Origin: a virus
IMG/VR virus record: IMGVR_UViG_3300042301_001793
Location: 1-25,478 of that record
DNA length: 25,478 bases
Reading direction: 5' to 3' (one strand)
The translations under genes were made by a program, and so were the position numbers. The first letter of the stretch is position 1; each line of letters opens with the position of its first letter. Positions 5,749 to 25,478 of this stretch are shown here, one piece after another. The notes under the pieces were generated by a model. That model made no database searches, was not told the origin of the DNA, and saw only the letters and a list, made by a program, of their open reading frames with translations.

Positions 5749-6447
5749 ATGGCCAGGAACACTAGTCTCCTTAGTCTGCGCGATCAGCTCAGAGCTGAGA
5801 TTGGTGCGTCCCCTAGCGTGGCCATGGGGGTTAATACGGTCGAGCAATTCGATCAGCTGCTGCGAAGGACGCAGGAGCGCCTGTGGCAGGACTTTGATTG
5901 GTCCTTTGGCGTGATCGACCGGGACGAGCCGCTGCTCGCCGGCCAGCGCTACTACACGTTCGACCCGGACATTGACTTTGACCGGATCTGCTGCGCCCAC
6001 GTCAAGTATAGCGACATTTGGCACCCGATCACCTATGGCATCGGGACCAACGAGCTGAACAACTATGACTCAGACCAGGACGACGCCACGGAGCCGGCCG
6101 TTCGCTGGCGTCATTATGAGGGTAACCAATTTGAGATCTGGCCGGTTCCGACGACAAACAACCAGATCCTCCGCTTCCGCGCGGTTCGCAAGCTGCCCCC
6201 GCTTATCGCCACTACTGACGTCGCCCTCCTGGACGACACTCTGATCATCCTGTTCGCTGCAGCCGAGCACCTGGCCAGGACCAAGGCCCAGGACGCGTCT
6301 GCCAAGCTCAGCCAGGCTCAATCCCATTTCAATCGTCTCAAGGGCATGGGCCTCAAGACGGACCGGTTCATCTACGGTGGCGGCCTTGATGGCGGCCAGC
6401 GTATCCGCTACATCGGCGGCCGGGCTGTCTGGGACGATCGACCATAA
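5749..6447 (+). CDS. Head-tail adaptor (T7 gp11 / P22 gp4-like neck protein)
   Basis: This 232-residue protein probably forms the ring beneath the portal that joins head to short tail. The N-terminal region has a helical pair ending in RRTQERLWQDFDWSFGVIDRD (about residues 44-64). An amphipathic helix with an RxQERLW..FDW signature is typical of podophage adaptor or tail-tubular-A-like proteins. The middle is beta-rich (YYTFDPDIDFDRICCAHVKY, VRWRHYEGNQFEIWPVP), and a C-terminal helical bundle follows (LFAAAEHLARTKAQDASAKL). The gene is six bases after the small gene, and the large tail protein begins three bases after its stop, as in podophage neck-tail clusters. The family call is from pattern and position. 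Confidence 0.72.
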   Translation: MARNTSLLSLRDQLRAEIGASPSVAMGVNTVEQFDQLLRRTQERLWQDFDWSFGVIDRDEPLLAGQRYYTFDPDIDFDRICCAHVKYSDIWHPITYGIGTNELNNYDSDQDDATEPAVRWRHYEGNQFEIWPVPTTNNQILRFRAVRKLPPLIATTDVALLDDTLIILFAAAEHLARTKAQDASAKLSQAQSHFNRLKGMGLKTDRFIYGGGLDGGQRIRYIGGRAVWDDRP

Positions 6448-14815: not shown

Positions 14816-17800
14816 ATGAGCGCAAGAGGTTCTAGTAATTTCGAAGGAAACCAGGCTGCAAACCAAGCCAGGCAACAGGCAGCGCAGCTTGAAGCGCGCA
14901 AACAGGCTGAAGCAGCGCGCGCTGCAGCTATTGCTGGGGCGGCAGCTCCTCAGACTACCCCATCTTCCGGCGCTCCCGTAGCTAGCGAGATCGCGAAGCT
15001 AATGGTCGAGACGGCCCAGCGCCAAAAAGCGCAGCCGTCCCCACTTGCAGCCTCTGGCGTATCCCAGGCGCTGCCTCTTAGCCCGATTGCTCCGGGCCAG
15101 CCTGGCCTTCCTGCTGGCGCCCCCACTTCCCTGTCTGATTTATTCGGCGGCCCTGCTGCGTCCCAGGCTCAAGGCGGCCTTTCGGACTACGGTCTTTCTC
15201 CCGACCCGGAGATGATCACCAACGCCGGCGGTAACCCTAACGCGATCACCAGCGACATGCCGGCCGGCATGACCATGGAGCCGGAAGCTCCTATGCCTGG
15301 CCAGCCGGCGCCCCAGGGCGCAGCTCCTATCACCGGAGCCACCACCATTTCTGATCTCGTCGCCCGCGGCCTTGGCGTCAACCAGGCGCCCCAGGCTCCG
15401 GCCATAGCTCAGCCTGGCATGCCGGCGCCGCGCGTCCCTCAGCTGCCACCCATGCCTCAGCTGCCGACCCCCACAGGTCCGCAGATGTTGCCTCAGTATG
15501 CCGGCGCGGACTCTCGCGCTAACTTTGCTCCTGGCGGCACCCCTCAGCTCATGCCGGAAGCCCAGGCCCGCGTTGACCTGGCCAATGCCCCTACCTTTGC
15601 GGATTGGGCCAACCAGCTCCAACAGATGGGGATCGCCGGCAACCCGGCCGCCGCGACCTTTGGCACCGGTATGCCGTCGCCGCGTGTCCCGCAGCTGCCG
15701 CCTATGCCCCAGCTCCCGACGCCGTCGGGTATTCCTTCTGGTCTTGCAGCGCCCCAGCCGGCGCCCCAGGCTCCTGCTTATGCCAATCCCCAAGCCCAAG
15801 GTGGTGTTCAAGCACCCGCCGGACCTCAAGCTCCGGGCGTCGTTCAAGGCCAAGCAGCTCCGGCTCAGCAAGTCCAAGCCCAAGCCCAGCCTCCTGTCGC
15901 TCCTGCGCCCGTTGCTGGACCGGCTCCTGCGCCGGCGGTAGCCCCTGCTCCTGCCCCGGCCCCCGCGCCCCAGGCGCCCCAGGCTCAGCAGCCTCCGTCC
16001 ACCCAGGAACCGGCGCCGATCGACCAGCCGGCCGGCGAAGAAGGCCAGGCCGCCCCTGGCGGCGCGTTCAACGGCTCTCCCCTCCAGAACGCGAAGCCGG
16101 AAAAGCCGATGATCTCCGGCGGCCAGCTGACGCCTCCGACGACATTTGGCAGCATCTCCCCCAATCGTGTCGTCTCGCAGGACAGGCTAACCAAGGCCGG
16201 TCTTTCCGGCGCGCTCTTGTCTCAGTTCGTCGAAGAAGCTCAAATCGGCGCGGTCAAGTGGTATAAGCGCACCGTCGATAACGAGAGCGAGGCCGCCTCG
16301 CTGCTTTACGAATTTGCTAAGAACCGCGCCCAGGAGGAGGCCTTGATGCTCATCCTGGACGGACAGAACCGTCCGATTGCGATCCTGCGCCACCAGATGG
16401 GCGGCCCCGGAAGCACCAGCTTCGCGCCTAACATCCTTGCCGGCGTCGCTGCTGCCACGCCTGGCGCCAAGAAAGTTTATACCGCGCATAACCACCCTGG
16501 CCGGAGCATCGCGTTTTCCGATAAGGATCTCACCAGCCAGCACACCGTCGGGAAGATCCTTTCTTTCGTCGGCGTCGAGGTGAAGGGCGTCATGATCCTG
16601 GGTGATCCCAATTACGACATAGCCGGTATGGACAAGCCCAGGTTCTTGTTCACGGCCGGAAAGGATCTTCTTAAGGATCTTAATCGTTACGCGAACGGAC
16701 GTCCCGATGGTGATGATCCTGCGACCCAAGAGATCCCCATGGCCGCGGACATGGTCCCCCAGAGCGAGGGCTCCGACGACCGCGAAGGCTACGATCCTGG
16801 CCTTAGCGATGAGGACAACATCACGGCGTTTGGTCGCCGGTCGAACGCCGGACTGTATGACATTCCGATCGTTGAGCGCGTGTTTACTACGCGAGGCCGC
16901 GGCCTGGCTAGTGTCAAAATGTCGGCTTCCGGCGGTTACGCTGAGATCGCTCCGCTTCTTCAGAACGGATCTGGCCTGGCGTTTGTTGACGCCGGCCTTA
17001 ACCTTGTCGGCGTCCTGCCCATGTCTATCCGCGAGATGGGCATGCTCATGTCCTATGTCAGCCGTAACCACAAGCCGGGGCAGGGTCACCTGGTTGTGTC
17101 CTCCCGCAAGCTTGGTCCTGCCAGCCTCCGCATCGCTCCCGTAAGGGACGCCGACGGCAAGACCAACGGCAATAAGAACATTGGTCGCGGCAACCTAGAC
17201 TATAGCAATAGCCCGATGGCACGGATCATGGCCATGAACGCCAAGTCCAACGCCGGCCGCGTGATCATCCACCTGGGTGACGTTGACGCCGACCAGGTTT
17301 CCAACGGCGACGACATTTCCGGAACCGTGTCCGGTCGCAACATGACCGCCGACGATGTTATCGACGCAGTCCAGAACCTTAAGGAGGCCATTCAAGAGTC
17401 CGGCCTAGAGTTCCTTGAAGTGACCGGCAACGACACCGGATACGGTGCGTTCCCGTTTGGTCGCCGCCGCGATCTGCAGCCGGATCAATCCAAGGCTCCG
17501 ATCGACGAGGTTAGCCGCTACACCCCGGAAGGCGAAAAGGCCCTGGCAGACGATCAGCAGCCTGGCGCTATCCGCAATCTCCCGAACCCCAAGCTGCCTA
17601 CCGGAGATCGCGCCTCGTTCCGCGAAGAAGGCGAAGCCTATGGCGCCGAGGGTGAAGCCCAGGGTGGCGTCGAAGGCATCGTCCGAGAAGGCCTCCAGGG
17701 CCCGGCAAATGAGGACGCCGACGTCAACGAAACCAACCCGGACGATCCTAACGCCGGCGCAGAGTTTGCCCGCCAGGAGCGCGAAGCCGGCGCCAGGGTT

Positions 17801-20800
17801 AACAGAGATCTACCCAGCGGCCTGGAAAACGCGACTGACGTAACCCCCCTTCTTGGAGCTTACACCCCTAAGAACAAGCTTAGGATCAAGTCTGTCCCAG
17901 GAGAGATGGGAATGAATACCAGCGTCGAAGGAGAGCCAACCCCCTCGATGGAAAAGATTGGCCCTTCCCAGCGCGAGTCCGCTGCTGGCGCCTCCGTATT
18001 CCCACGCACCCTTAGCCCGGCTACCAAGTTTGGCCGATGGACCGGTGAGCAGCTTAAGGACTTTGGTTTGTCCCAGGCCATGCTCGATCAGTTCGTCGAA
18101 CATTCGACGATAGGTCACGTCATGTCCGGCGTCGAGTTCGTCAAGAACGCGGGCGACGCAGCTCACGTCGTGTCCTACATGCGCAAGAACCCGGTCGAGG
18201 AGATCGTCATTCTCGTCTGCGATAAGAACGGCAAGCCTCTCCAGGTGGCCAGGCATAGCACGGCCCATGAGGCCGCCGCTTGTGTCTTTAATCCTGCGAT
18301 CCTTGTTGGCGCCGCAGCCAGCACCCCTGGTGCTGACACGGTTTACTTCATCCATAACCACCCGTCCCGTAAGCCGCACCTTTCCGGTTCAGACGAAAAC
18401 GCCGACAGCAAGATCCGTGACTTAGTTAAAGCTGCCGGTCTAAAGTTTGGAGCTACCATCGCTATCGCCGGCGACAAGTTTGCTGCGCGAGTCAACGGTG
18501 GTATGTCTCAAGGAGCTGTTCCGATCAAGCCGGCTCCGCGTAAGTTTAAGATCCCTCTTACCGAACGTAGGTTTGCGTTCCATGTCGGATACAGCGGCGA
18601 AAGGATCTACGGAACCGCAGACAGCTCCACCCTGGGCGCTGAGGTCTTTGGGACGCAGCCAGGCGTGATCTTCCTGGATAACAACGAGCGCCCGGTTGCC
18701 ACTCTCCCTCTCAGCCTTGAAACCCTGGCTAAGATGCGCGAGCCGGACCCCGCCGGCCAGACGGGCTTTGGTAAATTCGTGGCCACGACCGACCGAGCCG
18801 GAGGTTTGCACATGATCCTATACCTGGGCGACGTCCAGAGGAACGATACCCAGAAATGGATGGGAGCTGCTAATAACTTCACCAAGACTGTCCGCGCAGC
18901 CGGCGGTGTTAAGATGAAGCACATCACCAACATGGATGGAGATACGCTTACCCCTACCCAGGAGTGGGGTGATTTTGACGAAACCGGCGAGGACTATAAC
19001 GCCGGCCAGGACAAGCCGGCCTCCCTGCGCGAAGCGGTAGAGCAAGCGGCTAAAAAAAAAAATGACCTAGAGGTTGGTGAGGGTGACCCGGATCCGGAAA
19101 GCATGGCCCAAATGGGCGAGCTTGAACGATCCTGGCGTGAGGACATGGCTGCTAAGAAGGAAGCTGCAGCCAGGGCGGCGGTAGCCCCTGGCGGCGTCCG
19201 CGCTAACCATGACAACCAGGCCCTGGCCGACAACGGTTTCATCACTCAGCGCGCAAGCCAGGACATGGCCAGGATCATGGAGCGCATCAACAAGCGCTTC
19301 CCTAACGGCTACAAGTTCTTCAAAGCCGGCATGATGGCCGCGCCGGAGTTCAAGAAGATCGCCAATCTCCGGCTGCGCTACGAGAGCCACAACGCCGGTT
19401 TTTCCGGCTTTGAAAGCCAGGACTACGTCTACATCGACGCCGTCTTTGAGGACGGTTCGACGCGCGAGATCGCCAGCCTGGATCTGATGCGCGGCTATGG
19501 CGGCTCCCCGGAGTTCCCAACGGTCGTCACCAAGGTGGGCATGAGCAGCGTAAACACCGATCTTCAGAAGCTTGGCCTGGGTAGCATCTTATATGTCGAG
19601 GGTGGCGAGCGCTTGCGCCGGATGGGCCAGCGAGAGCTGACCGGATCCGTCGTTAACCCGGCTGCCGTAGCTACCCGCGTTAGGGCCTTCCCGGCCGGTA
19701 GCACCGAGCTCGTTTCTATCCCTGGATCGTCTACCATGACCCAGCAGCACATGGCGCAGGAAGCGCTCTTGATCATCAAGAGTGGCATGGCTGCCTATAC
19801 GAGCACACGCCTGGATCCGAACGTCGCCCTGGAAGAAGGCCAGGCCTACGACGATGGCGAGAACACGGTGATCCCTGGCGGCGCCAGGGAAGCCAAGCTT
19901 AAGCAGCAGCCTACCCGGCTGCCGTTGACCTACCTCAATATCGGCCACGGCCCCGGCCCTAATGGCCAGGCTGGGTTCGACTCACCCGAAGCAAAGAAGG
20001 CCTATTACGACAACACCTACCTGTATTTCATAGATAAGAACGGCGAGGTCCATATCACGGAAAACCTGTCGGAGTTATCCCAGGTTAATGGTCCTTGGGC
20101 GAAGGGTAACCCCGACTCCGTAACCCACGGAATGGTGTTCTTGAACAGCAAGTTCGGCGGCATTGGCCGCGATCACAATGGCTTCATGGAAGCCGTCGCC
20201 ATGGGCCGGATCGAGAACCGTGACGGCAAGCTGGTCATGAGCCTAACGCCAGGACCGCAACGGCATCGGATGGGCAAGCCCGTCCTGGAGGACGGCAACC
20301 TGGCTGCGGATCTGACGGAAGCTATCGCTAACCTCAAGACCGAGGCCACCAAACACTTCAAGCTAAGATCGGAACGCAGCGCCAGCGTAGCGACGTTCGG
20401 CCGGACCGGCACCCTGGTCGAAGAAGCCGGCGCAAACTACGACGACGGCGAGAACATGCGCATCCCCGGCGGCGCGCGCGACAAGTTCCTGGACGACAAG
20501 GAGCAGCTGGTAAAGACCTTCAAGGAATACGGCTACATGACCCTTGGTCACGGGATCGACACGTTTGGTGAGCCTGTTGATAAGACCGGCGCCTGGAAGA
20601 AGAAGGCCTACATGTTCATCATCGACCCGGACGGCATGGTCCGCGTCAGCGACACGATCGACAAAGAAGAGGCCAAGTATATCCGAACGATGCAGAAGGA
20701 GTGGGTCGGCATGGCCGTCACCCTTAAGGACATGCTCAAGGCCCAGCCTAACACCAACGTGGTCATTCATAGGCAAGCCTTCCCTGGTCTGCGCAGCATG

Positions 20801-23800
20801 GCCGTCCAGGGGCGCGTCGAGATCCGCGACGGCGTGGCCTACGTTAGCGTCATCAAGAACAATAACCAGAACGAGAACACGGCCAAAGAGCGTCAGCAGC
20901 GCCTGGATCAGATCCGCAGCACGGTCCGTGAAAAGACCGGCGTTAGGGACGTCCGCATCGTGGACATGTCTGCACCGGCCGACGCAGATCCGACCAGGGA
21001 CGCGGACTCCGCGCGCGAACCGGCCATGCCCTACGACGACGGCGAGAACACCCGTATCCCCGGCAGCGAGCGAGACGAGCGCCTTAAGAAGCTTGAGGAA
21101 CGCGCCCGATACATGGAGCAGCTTGGATACATGCACATCGGCCATGGCTATGACGCCGGCATGTTTAGCGAGGACAAGACTCCTGGCGCCTGGAAGAAGA
21201 AGGCCAGGATGTGGGTCCTGTCTACTGAGACGGACCGGATCAAATTCAGCCAGACGATCGACAGGGTCGAAGCCCGTCAGCTTGCCAACATCAAGCGCAT
21301 GCTTCTTGAGGCCGAAGAAAAGGTTAAGCAGACCGACCCGAAGGACCCCATGCTTGGACACCGACAAAGCCTTGTGACCTATTACGCCAAGCGGGCCAAG
21401 GACTTGCAGCACGACATTGGAACGAACGAGTCAGACGTCACCCATAGCGACTCTGCTGCCTTTAGCAAAAATGACTACACCGGACGCAACCCCCAGGGGC
21501 GCGTCGAGATCACACAGGACGGAGTCCTGGTCAGCGTGACCAGGCTGCGCGGCAACATGGAGTCTGTAGCTGATGAAGATTTTGTCATGAGAGAGCTGCG
21601 CGAAGCTGTCGCGAAGGAGCTGGGAGTGTCTCCCAACGAGGTCCGCATCGTGGACATGGATGGGAACACGCCGCCGGTCACGGGGACCGAAACCGATGAT
21701 AGCGCCAGGGAAGCCGGCGCCGCCTACGACGACGGCGAGAACCAGGCTATCCCTGGCGGCGGCCGCCAGGCCTGGATTAAGAAACAGGCTGCGCTGCGCG
21801 CTAAGAACGAACTGCCTGGCGCCCGCCGGATCCAATGGTGGACGGACGTTGGCCATAAGGGGGGTAAGAAAAGCCGCGAGAAAACCTGGCTCTGGGCTTA
21901 CGACAAGCAGGGCAAACTCCAGGTGATCAACGCCGACGAGCTTAGAACCAAGATGATGGATGACGGAGACGCCCTGGGCGCCACCCCCACGCACCTGGAT
22001 TGGGAGGAGGCCTACTTCCCTGGACTCCTGTCCGGAACGGCGCATGGCCGGATCGACGCGAGCGAGGAAGTGATCCGCGTGTCACTTACCGGCCGGATTA
22101 AAGACTCCGCGTTTCGAGAACAGGTCAAGCAAGAGCTGGCCGAATACATCGGCGCCGACGTCGATAAGGTCAAGGGCTACGACTTCACCGGCGGCGGCAT
22201 GCCGGAAGTGTTTGAGCCTGGATCTGAATACGAGGTCCGCGACGACAATAACGAGATCGTCGTGATCAGCTGGGACGACATTGGCTACCCTAAGACTGAG
22301 GCCCCCGACGCCGAGCAGCGTGGCATCAGAAACAAGATGGACGACGCCACCCCTATGGGCCTGTTCTTCATCAATAAGCAGGGCCAGATGGTAACGATCA
22401 CCCAGAACGAGCTCGCGCAGAGATCCATTGACGCCGGCCGTTACATTGACCCGACCCAGGTTGACCATCACGATTGGGCTGACATTGGCCATGAAGGCCT
22501 CAAGGCCGCCGGCATCGAGGCCTGGGACGGAACCAACGACGTGGCCTGGGGCCGGTATGAGATGCGCCCGGACGGGTCCTACATCATGTCCTACCGCGGC
22601 CGGCGCGGTCATTACGGCAACCAGGACGCCAAGGCCAAGCTGGCTGTGATGCTTGAGGTCACCCCGTCACAGATCACCGGCTTTGATTTCCTTAAAAGGG
22701 ATAAGACCAAGGCCACCAGCAACGGCTGGCGCGCCAGCAACGGACGCAACTACAGGGCGGCCCCGATGTTCAACCAGAACCAGGCCGGCAGCGATGCCGA
22801 ATTCCGACAGCTTGCCAACGAGCTGAAGGGCATGAACGTCGATCAAGCCAAGGCCTACTTCAAGAACAACCCCGGCAAGGTTAAGCTCCTGTCCAACCGC
22901 AAGCTGCCGCCTCACCTGGAGAAGCTCATCCAGGCCATGCGCACCATCGGCTACAACGATGCCAAGGCCTGGCTGCAAGCTCACCCTATCGGCCGGAAGC
23001 TCATGGAAAACGGCCGGCTTATCCTGGTCAAGAGCCCCAGCGAGGTGCCCTTTATCAGTCCGCTTGATGCGGACACGGTGGACTTCAATGGCGTCGTCGA
23101 TGGGAACAATCGTGAAGCCACCTATTTCGTGGGAGATCGCATCTCCCAGGCAGAGCTTGACGCCCTAATCCTGCATGAGGTCGGAGTCCACATGGGCATC
23201 GGCAAGGATACGGACCTGGTCAACGACCTATTCGCGGAGCTGTATAGCCTGGCTAAGAACGGGTCCAAGTCAGACCCGGACGTAGCTATCCTAAACGACA
23301 CGTTTGCGCGCGCGTTTGATGCGGTTTGCAGCCTAACGTCCTATGGCCCGGAGATCATGAGGCTCATTAACCAGGGGCAGCTTAGCCCGGTTGAAAGACA
23401 TTCTCCGGAGCGCATCGCCCAGATCATCAAGCAAGTCCTTCAAGCCGACGCGGCTAAGAACAAAGAAACCATTGACGACGGCGACATAGCAGATTTCACG
23501 GCGCACATCATGCGCATGTATCACGAGGAAGCCCTTGGCTACCTCATGAACATGATCTCCATAGCTGAGAACGATGGCACCTATAAGGAGAAGGGCATCA
23601 TCGCCTCGTTGATCCAATGGATCAAGGCGACCATGATCCGCATGGCTTACGCCAATAGCCAGGGCGGCAACCGCCGCGTAGCCGGCGCTGTAATGGGAGC
23701 TCTCAAGGCCGGCCAGGTTATCTCCGGTGCCATCGGAATGTCCAATGTCGGTAACGCCCTTGGGTTTAACGAGCTGAGCAAGCTGCTGGCTATCACTCCA

Positions 23801-25478
23801 GGCGACGTCCGGGCGATCGCCCAGGGATACGCCAAGGTCTACGCCGCCGGCAAGGAAGTCCGCGTGGCCACGGCCAGGAATGGAACCTGGGAGCTGACTG
23901 CCCAGAGCCAGGCAAACATTAATCAGCGCATGCGTCCGAACGCCGGCAACACCGCGCTGTTCGCCCGGACCATGTCCGAGGAAACGCGCAAAAACGCATC
24001 CAGAGGAGGGCCCAACCAGGGGTTGGCGTTCCAGGCTTCAACTGAGGAGCAGATCAAGGCTGAAATAGACAGGATGAATAATGAGAACAAGGCGGCCGGA
24101 GCTAACGAAGTCATCACTAGATCTGATTTTGTCGGAGCAGAAAGCGAACAGGTTGGCAACGAGCAGCCCATGCCTACGGCACCTATTGGTCCGCTTGGAA
24201 CGCAGCTGCCTATCGGTCCTAATCAGCGCGATGCTTTTGCTCCCGTCCAGGGAGTCAGCTTCCCGTCTGTTAACCTTGATCTTCCAATTTCATTAAGATC
24301 GCGTGGCAAGCGCACGGACATCCGTAACGAAAAAATAACAGGGGCAAGGATCGTTCTCCGAGAGGGTATCCATAAACCCGCCAAAAAAGACGACAGATGG
24401 GAGGGAGGGGGCGGCTTTGGACTTGTTCACCTTATTGCAAAACATGGCGCCGAGCTGAGGGCTACAGGTTTATTTAATGGATTGACCGACACACAGATGG
24501 TTCAGAAGGCCGTCGATCTGATCCTTTCGTCTAATAACAAAGTCGTTAAGTTTAGCATGGGATCAATGGATACTGACAGGGCCTTGAAGGAACCAGGCAA
24601 GGGCACCGAAAGACTGTCTACCCAAGAGGCCAACGTAGTATTAATTAAGGATAATAATACGGGCCTTATCGTGGCCCTGCGTATCCACCAAAACGATCCT
24701 AGCTTTGCCGGCTATGATCCAGATGCAGGGACTAATTTCTTAACGATTGGATCTCTCTACACGCAAGATCCAGGCAAGACGTTTGAAAACCTTAAGGGTG
24801 GCATGGAACGATTGGTTAATGCTAATACAATCTCCGTTAACCAAGGTAGCAATAACGTGCAAGAAAGCAGCCAGGTTGAAGAAACCGGCGAACAGCTCCA
24901 GGCCAGGGAGCAGGATCAGATCCGCGACATACTATCACACCAGGGCGGCGGCCCGGCCGGCCCCGCGCTGCTTGCCTCGCTGCCTCCCACCCCGCCCCCG
25001 CCTACGCCTACCGCCCCGGCGGCACCCTTGCCGGCACCTCTGAACCCGCCGGCTTCCAACGACGATACGGCGCGCCGCGTAGGCGACGTGCTACGCGGTC
25101 GTTACTTTGACGGCATCAGCACCAAGGCGCACCAGAACGCGGAGCGCACCGGCAGCGCAGCCGTCCGGGCTATTGCGGACATTATCCACACCCGCCCAGG
25201 AACGGAGAACCCGTCCTCTGATCGCGACCTACCCAAGGCAATCATGACGGCGCGCGCCAAGTATCAGAACAAGTTTAACGAGATCATGCGCCCGCTGCGC
25301 GATCAGCTTGGTCGCATGACCAGCGAGCAGCGCGAGCAGTTCTACCGCGATCTCGTCGATCAGATCACCGGCCGGACCAACATCCAGCCTGGCGTCGCCG
25401 GCCACGCAGCCACGCAGCTGATCGCCCTGCTTAAGGAGCTGCACGATTACCGGACCGCAGCCGGCGAGGACCTGGGCC
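14816..25478 (+). CDS. Giant polyvalent virion-associated protein (3' end beyond window)
   Basis: One uninterrupted frame of more than 3,554 codons, read codon by codon to the right edge without a stop. Order of parts by residue: 1-60 Ala/Gln helical; 60-430 Pro/Ala/Gln-rich arm; 462-608 RadC-like JAB 1; 683-865 companion 1; 1084-1235 JAB 2; 1246-1375 companion 2; about 1472-1635 GNAT-like; 1678-2625 tandem modules; about 2670-2945 HExxxH zincin; about 3170-3330 BECR-RNase-like; 3377-3416 proline hinge; then helical to the edge. This mix of peptidase, acetyltransferase-like and nuclease-like domains is the hallmark of phage polyvalent proteins, thought to be co-delivered with DNA to counter host functions. 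The gene ends the ejection-protein block, consistent with packaging in the virion. No signal peptide is seen. Whether it is processed into smaller proteins is unknown. Confidence 0.9.
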   Translation, partial: MSARGSSNFEGNQAANQARQQAAQLEARKQAEAARAAAIAGAAAPQTTPSSGAPVASEIAKLMVETAQRQKAQPSPLAASGVSQALPLSPIAPGQPGLPAGAPTSLSDLFGGPAASQAQGGLSDYGLSPDPEMITNAGGNPNAITSDMPAGMTMEPEAPMPGQPAPQGAAPITGATTISDLVARGLGVNQAPQAPAIAQPGMPAPRVPQLPPMPQLPTPTGPQMLPQYAGADSRANFAPGGTPQLMPEAQARVDLANAPTFADWANQLQQMGIAGNPAAATFGTGMPSPRVPQLPPMPQLPTPSGIPSGLAAPQPAPQAPAYANPQAQGGVQAPAGPQAPGVVQGQAAPAQQVQAQAQPPVAPAPVAGPAPAPAVAPAPAPAPAPQAPQAQQPPSTQEPAPIDQPAGEEGQAAPGGAFNGSPLQNAKPEKPMISGGQLTPPTTFGSISPNRVVSQDRLTKAGLSGALLSQFVEEAQIGAVKWYKRTVDNESEAASLLYEFAKNRAQEEALMLILDGQNRPIAILRHQMGGPGSTSFAPNILAGVAAATPGAKKVYTAHNHPGRSIAFSDKDLTSQHTVGKILSFVGVEVKGVMILGDPNYDIAGMDKPRFLFTAGKDLLKDLNRYANGRPDGDDPATQEIPMAADMVPQSEGSDDREGYDPGLSDEDNITAFGRRSNAGLYDIPIVERVFTTRGRGLASVKMSASGGYAEIAPLLQNGSGLAFVDAGLNLVGVLPMSIREMGMLMSYVSRNHKPGQGHLVVSSRKLGPASLRIAPVRDADGKTNGNKNIGRGNLDYSNSPMARIMAMNAKSNAGRVIIHLGDVDADQVSNGDDISGTVSGRNMTADDVIDAVQNLKEAIQESGLEFLEVTGNDTGYGAFPFGRRRDLQPDQSKAPIDEVSRYTPEGEKALADDQQPGAIRNLPNPKLPTGDRASFREEGEAYGAEGEAQGGVEGIVREGLQGPANEDADVNETNPDDPNAGAEFARQEREAGARVNRDLPSGLENATDVTPLLGAYTPKNKLRIKSVPGEMGMNTSVEGEPTPSMEKIGPSQRESAAGASVFPRTLSPATKFGRWTGEQLKDFGLSQAMLDQFVEHSTIGHVMSGVEFVKNAGDAAHVVSYMRKNPVEEIVILVCDKNGKPLQVARHSTAHEAAACVFNPAILVGAAASTPGADTVYFIHNHPSRKPHLSGSDENADSKIRDLVKAAGLKFGATIAIAGDKFAARVNGGMSQGAVPIKPAPRKFKIPLTERRFAFHVGYSGERIYGTADSSTLGAEVFGTQPGVIFLDNNERPVATLPLSLETLAKMREPDPAGQTGFGKFVATTDRAGGLHMILYLGDVQRNDTQKWMGAANNFTKTVRAAGGVKMKHITNMDGDTLTPTQEWGDFDETGEDYNAGQDKPASLREAVEQAAKKKNDLEVGEGDPDPESMAQMGELERSWREDMAAKKEAAARAAVAPGGVRANHDNQALADNGFITQRASQDMARIMERINKRFPNGYKFFKAGMMAAPEFKKIANLRLRYESHNAGFSGFESQDYVYIDAVFEDGSTREIASLDLMRGYGGSPEFPTVVTKVGMSSVNTDLQKLGLGSILYVEGGERLRRMGQRELTGSVVNPAAVATRVRAFPAGSTELVSIPGSSTMTQQHMAQEALLIIKSGMAAYTSTRLDPNVALEEGQAYDDGENTVIPGGAREAKLKQQPTRLPLTYLNIGHGPGPNGQAGFDSPEAKKAYYDNTYLYFIDKNGEVHITENLSELSQVNGPWAKGNPDSVTHGMVFLNSKFGGIGRDHNGFMEAVAMGRIENRDGKLVMSLTPGPQRHRMGKPVLEDGNLAADLTEAIANLKTEATKHFKLRSERSASVATFGRTGTLVEEAGANYDDGENMRIPGGARDKFLDDKEQLVKTFKEYGYMTLGHGIDTFGEPVDKTGAWKKKAYMFIIDPDGMVRVSDTIDKEEAKYIRTMQKEWVGMAVTLKDMLKAQPNTNVVIHRQAFPGLRSMAVQGRVEIRDGVAYVSVIKNNNQNENTAKERQQRLDQIRSTVREKTGVRDVRIVDMSAPADADPTRDADSAREPAMPYDDGENTRIPGSERDERLKKLEERARYMEQLGYMHIGHGYDAGMFSEDKTPGAWKKKARMWVLSTETDRIKFSQTIDRVEARQLANIKRMLLEAEEKVKQTDPKDPMLGHRQSLVTYYAKRAKDLQHDIGTNESDVTHSDSAAFSKNDYTGRNPQGRVEITQDGVLVSVTRLRGNMESVADEDFVMRELREAVAKELGVSPNEVRIVDMDGNTPPVTGTETDDSAREAGAAYDDGENQAIPGGGRQAWIKKQAALRAKNELPGARRIQWWTDVGHKGGKKSREKTWLWAYDKQGKLQVINADELRTKMMDDGDALGATPTHLDWEEAYFPGLLSGTAHGRIDASEEVIRVSLTGRIKDSAFREQVKQELAEYIGADVDKVKGYDFTGGGMPEVFEPGSEYEVRDDNNEIVVISWDDIGYPKTEAPDAEQRGIRNKMDDATPMGLFFINKQGQMVTITQNELAQRSIDAGRYIDPTQVDHHDWADIGHEGLKAAGIEAWDGTNDVAWGRYEMRPDGSYIMSYRGRRGHYGNQDAKAKLAVMLEVTPSQITGFDFLKRDKTKATSNGWRASNGRNYRAAPMFNQNQAGSDAEFRQLANELKGMNVDQAKAYFKNNPGKVKLLSNRKLPPHLEKLIQAMRTIGYNDAKAWLQAHPIGRKLMENGRLILVKSPSEVPFISPLDADTVDFNGVVDGNNREATYFVGDRISQAELDALILHEVGVHMGIGKDTDLVNDLFAELYSLAKNGSKSDPDVAILNDTFARAFDAVCSLTSYGPEIMRLINQGQLSPVERHSPERIAQIIKQVLQADAAKNKETIDDGDIADFTAHIMRMYHEEALGYLMNMISIAENDGTYKEKGIIASLIQWIKATMIRMAYANSQGGNRRVAGAVMGALKAGQVISGAIGMSNVGNALGFNELSKLLAITPGDVRAIAQGYAKVYAAGKEVRVATARNGTWELTAQSQANINQRMRPNAGNTALFARTMSEETRKNASRGGPNQGLAFQASTEEQIKAEIDRMNNENKAAGANEVITRSDFVGAESEQVGNEQPMPTAPIGPLGTQLPIGPNQRDAFAPVQGVSFPSVNLDLPISLRSRGKRTDIRNEKITGARIVLREGIHKPAKKDDRWEGGGGFGLVHLIAKHGAELRATGLFNGLTDTQMVQKAVDLILSSNNKVVKFSMGSMDTDRALKEPGKGTERLSTQEANVVLIKDNNTGLIVALRIHQNDPSFAGYDPDAGTNFLTIGSLYTQDPGKTFENLKGGMERLVNANTISVNQGSNNVQESSQVEETGEQLQAREQDQIRDILSHQGGGPAGPALLASLPPTPPPPTPTAPAAPLPAPLNPPASNDDTARRVGDVLRGRYFDGISTKAHQNAERTGSAAVRAIADIIHTRPGTENPSSDRDLPKAIMTARAKYQNKFNEIMRPLRDQLGRMTSEQREQFYRDLVDQITGRTNIQPGVAGHAATQLIALLKELHDYRTAAGEDLG
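15419..15730 (+). repeat. Duplicated proline motif in the N-terminal arm
   Basis: A 20-residue phrase, MP-A/S-PRVPQLPPMPQLPTP-T/S-G, occurs at residues 202-221 and 286-305, 84 residues apart, within the Pro/Ala/Gln-rich arm. The DNA copies (starting 15419 and 15671) differ mainly at third positions, so the peptide has been kept while the codons drifted. It may be a polyproline-II arm or a binding motif; no function is known. Confidence 0.75.
16199..16640 (+). other. Domain: RadC-like JAB/MPN metallopeptidase 1 (in giant CDS)
   Basis: Residues 462-608. The zinc-site motif H-x-H-x7-S-x2-D is complete: His558 and His560 (AHNHPG), Ser568, Asp571, with Glu507/Glu508 upstream as the candidate catalytic glutamate. 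The helical lead-in is GLSGALLSQFVE at 462. RadC-like JAB domains are common in polyvalent proteins, where they are predicted peptidases or DNA-repair-like modules; the substrate here is unknown. Confidence 0.82.
16862..17420 (+). repeat. Companion domain 1, following JAB 1
   Basis: Residues about 683-865. It is related to the segment after JAB 2: IPIVERVFTT matches IPLTERRFAF, SGLAFVDAGLNLVGVLPMS matches PGVIFLDNNERPVATLPLS 35-36 residues later, and HLGDV matches YLGDV. Copy 1 carries about 47 extra residues between the last two motifs. I do not recognise the family; it appears alpha/beta. Confidence 0.65.
18065..18520 (+). other. Domain: RadC-like JAB/MPN metallopeptidase 2 (in giant CDS)
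   Basis: Residues 1084-1235. The same zinc motif is intact: His1180, His1182 (IHNHPS), Ser1190, Asp1193, with VEEIVIL upstream giving the glutamate. The lead-in GLSQAMLDQFVE begins 96 residues before the first motif histidine, exactly the spacing in copy 1, which shows a shared origin. Both copies keep every zinc ligand, so neither looks inactive. Confidence 0.82.
18551..18965 (+). repeat. Companion domain 2, following JAB 2
   Basis: Residues about 1246-1383, the shorter of the two companion copies, with IPLTERRFAF at 1246, PGVIFLDNNERPVATLPLS at 1282 and YLGDV at 1336. It always follows a JAB domain here, so JAB plus companion is the duplicated unit. Function unknown. Confidence 0.65.
19052..19062 (+). 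other. A11 homopolymer: possible transcriptional slippage site
   Basis: Eleven consecutive A encode KKKN at residues 1413-1416 of the giant frame. The next bases put TGA (19063-19065) in the -1 frame and TAG (19068-19070) in the +1 frame. Any one-base slip therefore ends the protein at once, after both JAB units. It may be a programmed slippage site or simply a tolerated run. Confidence 0.45.
19230..19720 (+). other. Domain: GNAT-like segment (in giant CDS)
   Basis: Residues about 1472-1635. The C-terminal part has LGLGSILYVEGGERLRRMG (1586 onward) followed by LTGSVVNPAAVATRVRAF. This strand-loop-helix-strand pattern, with a Gly-x-Gly loop and a late Asn-Pro-x-Ala, is common in GNAT acetyltransferases. 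The usual Arg/Gln before the glycine loop is not clear, so activity is uncertain. The call is from pattern only. Confidence 0.45.
19847..22690 (+). repeat. Tandem array of an unrecognised ~200-residue module (4 clear + 1 degenerate)
   Basis: The linker YDDGEN..IPG..R starts copies at residues 1678, 1875, 2073 and 2304 (bases 19847, 20438, 21032, 21725). In each, a strand with GHG (or VGHKGG in copy 4) follows within about 25 residues, then a W/F-rich strand ending in a D/K-G-x-V/L turn. After that come a His (TH, IH or VTH), a GR-V/I-E/D strand and a helix ending before a V-R/K-I/G-x-D strand. Copies 2 and 3 are closest, sharing exact DNA stretches of about 20 bases. A fifth copy without the linker lies at about 22249-22690 (MGLFFINKQGQ, VDHHDW, GRYEMRPDGSYIMSY). 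I cannot name the fold. Confidence 0.8.
22825..23655 (+). other. Domain: zincin-like metallopeptidase with HExxxH (in giant CDS)
   Basis: Residues about 2670-2947. ALILHEVGVHMGIG carries His2787, Glu2788 and His2792, an HExxxH variant of the zincin motif. HEEALGYL (Glu2904/Glu2905), about 112 residues later, is the likely third ligand, followed by a basic helix WIKATMIRMAY. This HEVGVH plus EEALxYL pairing matches the zincin-like peptidases of phage polyvalent proteins as I remember them. The substrate is unknown. Confidence 0.7.
24330..24810 (+). other. Domain: possible BECR-fold RNase (in giant CDS)
   Basis: Residues about 3172-3332. GGFGLVHLIAKHG (His3205, His3210) resembles the G-x-G-x-x-Hi-x-x-x-Hg signature of the phage Barnase-EndoU-ColicinE5/RelE-like nucleases. 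Strands VVKFSMGS, EANVVLIKDNNTG and LIVALRIHQND follow. By hand count GC is about 45% over 24421-24840 against 60-70% in sampled upstream lines, suggesting separate acquisition. If active it would cut RNA after delivery to the host. Confidence 0.5.

Follow-up and report, generated by a model that had tools for sequence, protein, structure and literature searches.

Tandem pairs of zinc-bearing and zinc-less RadC-type JAB domains in a giant phage protein with a candidate slippage site behind them

1. Closest Described Systems and the Locus

In eukaryotes, live and dead MPN subunits are paired as separate chains, and such MPN+/MPN- pairs occur in the proteasome lid and in the COP9 signalosome. 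BRCC36 is described as being switched on by its dead partner KIAA0157, its activity needing a dimer of such pairs (PMC4579573). Here we analyse a phage protein in which a zinc-bearing and a zinc-less JAB domain follow each other twice within one chain. The DNA, hereafter the window, is the whole stretch of 25,478 bases of the IMG/VR virus record IMGVR_UViG_3300042301_001793. Its plus strand carries, together with the domains, motifs and A run located below, a giant open reading frame (ORF) of the phage polyvalent type (14816-25477; residue 1 at base 14816) that codes for 3554 amino acids and is open at the window end. The order of domains in this protein reads RadC, dead RadC, RadC, dead RadC.

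The RadC-like JAB family (PF04002; E. coli YicR; PDB 2qlc) gives the fold and sequence common to both halves of the repeated unit, and the live domains of the window protein, JAB1 and JAB2, retain its zinc motif and glutamate. RadC itself has a single JAB domain; the phage protein adds a fused, zinc-less JAB after the live one and repeats this pair. What the RadC domain does in bacteria is presented as unsettled (PMC11981726). Two other described systems bear on the locus: the polyvalent proteins of phages, proposed to enter the host along with the DNA (Iyer et al. 2017, PMC5512222), and the dnaX gene of Thermus thermophilus, in which a slippage site with stops soon after in both other frames leads to a short and a full product (PMC5009743).

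2. The Companion of Each Live JAB Domain Is a RadC-Type JAB Domain without a Zinc Site

JAB1 (16244-16606) and JAB2 (18110-18472; bounds from profile hidden Markov models, HMMs) are catalytic RadC-type JAB domains, since PF04002 (RadC-like JAB) matches the protein in two stretches with 76.6 bits against a curated cut-off of 22.1. They share 35% identity over 144 residues (BLAST, E 3e-24). Each is preceded by the helix motif GLSxAxLxQFVE (GLSGALLSQFVE at 16199-16234, residue 462; GLSQAMLDQFVE at 18065-18100, residue 1084) and contains, 96 residues further on both times, the zinc motif H-x-H-x7-S-x2-D (HNHPGRSIAFSDKD at 16487-16528, residue 558; HNHPSRKPHLSGSD at 18353-18394, residue 1180). The metal and catalytic set E...HxH-x7-SxxD is present in both, the conserved Glu column of JAB1 reading 'QE', and the JAB2 half of the model of 18095-18958 matches RadC 2qlc_B with a VIA Z of 15.7 (model residues 13-138). 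Among 70 units compared, 69 retain the catalytic Glu, 69 both His, 67 the Ser and 69 the Asp; the sole loss of Glu, His or Asp is found in locus L043, where the second JAB of a two-unit protein (5992-6435) lacks HxH and the catalytic Glu. We infer from these sequences that the zinc-bearing JAB is a hydrolase.

The companion domains span 16862-17380 (companion 1, which has a long insert) and 18548-18937 (companion 2), as bounded by the companion HMM. They share the motifs IPxxER (residues 683 and 1246, with one further occurrence in the giant ORF at residue 2081), FxDxxxxxVxxLPxS (723 and 1286) and LGDV (820 and 1337). A motif scan of the ORF recovered every motif put forward in the original prediction as well as its 96-residue spacing from helix to histidine. 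The companion, which that prediction could not name, is a RadC-type JAB domain without a zinc site because fold search, profile match and the reach of the companion HMM all lead to RadC.

A model of companion 2 alone, built with AlphaFold2 from 22 companion rows and zero JAB rows, is of moderate quality (predicted local distance difference test, pLDDT, 73; predicted template modelling score, pTM, 0.68). Searched with Foldseek against the PDB, it retrieves five RadC 2qlc chains at ranks 1-5 (probability 1.00-0.92, E 2.7e-3 to 3.3e-2), followed by a rank 6 of probability 0.16. VIA-align superposes it on RadC with Z 10.3 (104 residues, 2.7 Å), the runner-up being at Z 5.5; the rows at 5.4 to 4.9 include eIF3f, EMC and CSN6, which we take to be zinc-less MPN proteins. 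The first companion search had found nothing, and shallow early alignments of companion against JAB were not significant (0.3-13% probability), significance coming only with distant relatives. A profile of 70 companions then matched a set of eight RadC sequences (E. coli and plasmids) at 97.5% (HHalign, E 7.5e-12), and at 97.6% when the JABs of the family were added to the RadC set. The reversed profile gave 0.1%, and 60 block-shuffled profiles scored at most 23.4 against 70.1 (0/60 as high). The companion HMM was also scanned over 288 genomes of the Verrucomicrobiota, the phylum of a metagenome-assembled genome (MAG) that carries the unit. It found 15 places in 13 of the 288 genomes, three being phage-like copies and the other 12 (12/12) ordinary RadC-type ORFs with an HNHP site.

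The catalytic Glu/His/His/Ser/Asp are absent at the corresponding place from the companions of the 70 units, in which the HNHP segment, as judged by eye from the alignment, is swapped for a short loop. Any HxH is held by only 2/70 companions, in both cases in a hairpin turn away from the site, and by neither of the two in the window.

The whole unit made of JAB2 and companion 2 (18095-18958, 288 residues) was modelled from 70 rows with pLDDT 94 and pTM 0.90, the order of strands and helices being repeated in both halves. Since a pTM of 0.90 is reached in a two-domain chain of 288 residues, JAB2 and companion 2 are predicted to form one rigid body with a fixed arrangement. Four entries of a viral structure library span both domains (template modelling score by query 0.93, 0.91, 0.79 and 0.76), and two of them, from uncultured phages, are annotated 'RadC-like JAB domain containing protein'. 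The dimer-like arrangement within one chain, which had been proposed for the two units, is thus placed first inside each unit, between JAB and dead JAB, the pair of units forming a second level.

A zinc JAB adjoining a zinc-less JAB is the layout of the MPN+/MPN- heterodimers BRCC36-KIAA0157, Rpn11-Rpn8 and CSN5-CSN6. These consist of two chains and act on ubiquitin-like tags, whereas the phage unit is a single chain of the RadC branch; the two are likened by domain pairing, not by interface. The comparison with BRCC36 would concern the mode of working and makes no claim of family membership.

3. Duplication and Distribution of the Unit

The tandem duplication of the JAB-companion unit with both zinc sites kept, as originally predicted, holds across relatives: the pair of H-x-H-x7-S-x2-D motifs is intact in 9/9 loci that have both units complete. 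Judging from sequence comparison, the duplication of the companions is real, yet demonstrable only via relatives. Aligned head-on, companions 1 and 2 of the window score 41, a value equalled or beaten by 89 of 1000 shuffles and so not above shuffled sequence. The relatives were eight IMG/VR loci, to which more were added afterwards. Companion 2 of the window matches companion 1 of 4/8 of these relatives (E 3e-5 to 1.5e-6), and the profile of 12 first companions matches that of 10 second companions at 98.3% (HHalign, E 1.8e-14; 98.5% and E 1.5e-15 with 8 + 8 rows), which argues for a real duplication. Of the comparison by fold and profile suggested in the original prediction, the profile part is significant; companion 2 was the one folded, and companion 1, of the family that matches RadC, is tied to it by profile.

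The unit was followed further in 80 extra loci (the best 80 of 106 matches), which JAB patterns retrieved and a query made of JAB plus companion then verified; the sample is therefore biased towards the pair. Among the 68 JAB ORFs, non-redundant by their first JAB and several of them cut by contig or locus ends, 67 carry the unit: 56 are JAB-companion, 8 are doubled, 1 is JAB-companion-JAB at a contig end, L043 has the dead second JAB and L114 a doubtful extra fragment. The one lone JAB (1/68) belongs to L100 (ORF from 5657), the second JAB ORF of a contig that already holds a unit; by sequence, the stretch after it resembles a highly diverged companion that escaped the HMM. The JAB-companion unit is widespread in giant phage proteins; doubled units with both sites intact occur only in the clade of the window.

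When 70 JABs are placed on a tree, the unit-1 copies come together in a single starred clade (100/97). Unit-2 JABs group with those of the single-unit loci L028 and L039 and do not make up a clean clade (changes 2; a single origin in 12% of bootstrap trees). Unit 1 and unit 2 are contained together in a starred set of 18 rows (97/92), its bootstrap being not settled. By these groupings, the duplication of the unit is old within the clade of the window.

Several tblastn searches against named phages gave no match; others matched 4, 7 and 24 records, none spanning 80% of the unit. One search of GTDB genomes found none and another found two contigs of one Opitutae MAG. JAB-companion units are present in three bacterial genome contigs (L028, L029 and L137, two of them in one uncultured Opitutae MAG), which are either prophages or viral contigs binned with a host. 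L001 and L006 are the two ends of contig IMGVR_UViG_3300032307_000462 and have differing versions of unit 2; this contig may join two related phages.

4. A Candidate Slippage Site behind the Double Unit

Eleven A in a row (19052-19062), the only A run of at least 9 in the window, are followed at once by TGACCTAG (19063-19070), which holds a stop in each of the other frames (TGA at 19063-19065, TAG at 19068-19070). An A run is found 115 to 180 nucleotides behind companion 2 in 9/9 loci that extend that far, the other five loci of the clade ending earlier. It is 11 A long in the window, L002 (position 11018), L003 (11030), L006 (1077) and L007 (3235), and 10 A long in L004 and L005 (both 11025; close copies), L021 (10693) and L023 (10621). 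Each of these nine loci has a GC content of 0.58-0.62 and no other A run of at least 9. A first-order Markov model leads to expect 0.015 A or T runs of at least 10 per window length, and lysine is encoded in the giant ORF by 146 AAG versus 30 AAA codons. The run is missing from three single-unit relatives (L028, L029 and L039), and pattern scans for further loci with it returned only six contigs, all already known.

Where the run counts 11 A, the reading frame continues through it into the giant ORF, and each of the other frames meets a stop within 8 codons. Three of the loci with 10 A have an in-frame stop no more than 4 codons past the run, the rest of the giant protein being encoded in a different frame; the sequence of the fourth, L023, reaches no further than the run. 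The disposition is that of Thermus dnaX, for which a single nucleotide is reviewed as able to reverse the default product (PMC5009743). The phage site would yield a JAB-only protein besides the polyvalent one. By analogy with dnaX, the A run is likely to be a slippage site from which a JAB-only protein is made as well. Ribosomal frameshifting stimulated by a stem or pseudoknot behind the run was considered and rejected, no common structure being found in 6 loci (z -2.17, 0.25, 0.61, 0.62, -1.39 and 0.53). Since no RNA structure is shared, polymerase slippage fits better than structured ribosomal shifting.

A comparable run was noticed in two sister single-unit loci (L071, 714-723; L090, 1279-1288), where 10 A lie within the ORF that precedes the one for JAB and companion, stops being close in the other frames.

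5. Proposed Function and Alternative Explanations

We favour with good confidence the hypothesis that each unit is a fused RadC-type pair composed of a zinc-bearing, MPN+ like domain and a zinc-less, MPN- like domain, in which the dead partner serves as scaffold or activator. The zinc JAB would hydrolyse its substrate, while the dead RadC would hold it in active shape, switch it on or bind the substrate, as KIAA0157 does for BRCC36, and two such pairs would act side by side. The protein would be delivered into the host together with the DNA, a route proposed for polyvalent proteins, and slippage at the A run would let one gene encode the giant protein in full as well as a JAB-only product, as in Thermus dnaX. 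Gag and Gag-Pol, which share a start, offer a likeness for the four-JAB protein and the giant protein. The substrate is somewhat more probably a nucleic acid or nucleotide, in line with the reasoning of Iyer et al. 2017 on RadC; a peptide or ubiquitin-like tail is the less probable choice. We advance more tentatively, as a possibility slightly on the doubtful side, the complete scheme in which phages evolved a fused equivalent of MPN+/MPN- pairs in the RadC branch and one clade made of it a single-chain dimer of pairs, produced alone and, via slippage at the A run, as the head of an injected polyvalent protein.

Several observations speak against the favoured hypothesis. HMMER finds neither a PDB chain nor a convincing Pfam family for the companion, and the companion profile matches the family's own JABs alone less well (68%, E 4.8e-5) than it matches RadC. 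No Pfam LPD domain is matched in the window protein at E up to 1, the ORF being cut by the window end, and RadC is the only family named. As regards the A run, the lack of a common structure behind it counts here too, the length of a homopolymer can be misread, and the E. coli polymerase is reported to slip more readily on T than on A (PMC6260861). The weaker match to the JABs of the family disfavours the companion being a young copy of the adjoining JAB, RadC being the closer of the two. That it is an unknown or unrelated alpha/beta domain resembling RadC, JAB and companion then building an ordinary two-domain enzyme, would agree with the missing plain HMMER match to RadC in Pfam or PDB and with the moderate pLDDT of the first companion model. 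We reject this explanation as most improbable, for RadC ranks far above other folds, the HHalign match (E 7.5e-12) has clean controls, the companion HMM reaches 12 chromosomal RadC and nothing else beyond phage-like copies, and the two halves of the unit repeat the same order of strands and helices.

The JABs could also be processing peptidases that cut the giant protein at interdomain linkers presented by the dead partner, and a linker-like motif does recur at 7 places resembling domain borders (see Section 6). However, HEx(2-3)H, typical of the zincin peptidases proposed for that role, follows the companion in 36/66 units and the window has such a motif in HEVGVH; together with the argued lack of a ubiquitin-tail groove in RadC-type JABs (PMC5512222), this makes a processing role unlikely. 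A better, though still minor, chance is given to the two units being sub-functionalised copies that act on different substrates, the other possibility raised when the duplication was predicted. The unit-1 JABs indeed stand in their own starred clade apart from unit 2, and unit 1 of the window is less conserved, with 30-38% identity to relatives (alignment A4) versus 44-48% for unit 2 (A3). The same data fit a single intramolecular dimer of pairs, however, and unit 2 also groups with single-unit relatives. Finally, the A run could have no function and be due to chance or assembly, in which case misread homopolymers would account for the ORFs that are split where the run has 10 A: its length varies between 10 and 11, and assemblies are prone to errors in such runs. 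This is rather unlikely given that the run stands at the same place in 9/9 loci of GC 0.58-0.62, always as the sole A run of at least 9, that 0.015 A or T runs of at least 10 are expected per window length and that AAG so outnumbers AAA among the lysine codons.

A RadC with a fixed dead partner in a phage raises the possibility that RadC depends on a second JAB surface for its reaction. The pairing of live and dead JABs, known from eukaryotic complexes, is extended to phages and to the RadC branch, and slippage is pointed to as a means by which polyvalent proteins could tune how much of each domain is made. For annotation, a domain that Pfam fails to recognise in this phage family can now be named, and the well-predicted unit of 288 residues provides a construct for testing the idea of a RadC partner. 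RadC-type JABs, live-plus-dead JAB pairs, polyvalent proteins and dnaX-type slippage are all known kinds; their combination was not found in print among the matches listed, in which no paper links polyvalent proteins with slippage or with a dead RadC partner.

6. The Polyvalent Setting and Other Features of the Window

Four relatives (L044, L056, L058 and L059) have InPase, ddrB-ParB, LPD38 or LPD39 beside the RadC match in one chain, each of these domains being of a kind present in polyvalent proteins of phages. Within 500 residues after the companion, HEx(2-3)H is present in 36 of the 66 units with enough sequence, and in 5 for the upstream stretch, a control counted only where the sequence was long enough. 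As giant ORFs of many domains that include LPD38, InPase, ddrB-ParB and motifs like those of zincins, the relatives resemble the polyvalent proteins of Iyer et al. 2017 (PMC5512222), and the phage ORFs extend one statement of that account.

Profile searches of the window place genes for a terminase, a P22-like portal and a major head protein upstream of the giant ORF, whose relative in L002 is an open frame of 3693 residues. A motif of the type E-x-G-x-x-Y-(D/G/N) recurs in the giant ORF near 17624, 18980, 19832, 20423, 21017, 21710 and 22214 (residues 937, 1389, 1673, 1870, 2068, 2299 and 2467), at places that resemble domain borders, and is found again in the L002 relative; it is possibly a linker or a processing signal. 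Four repeats that start with YDDGEN..IPG, most with a GHG or GHK stretch, occupy about 19838-22220, and no Pfam family names them. HEVGVH at 23174-23191 is like the HExxxH zincins of polyvalent proteins. Towards the end of the ORF, at about 24263-24775, the stretch with GFGLVHLIAKHG presumably resembles PBECR nucleases.

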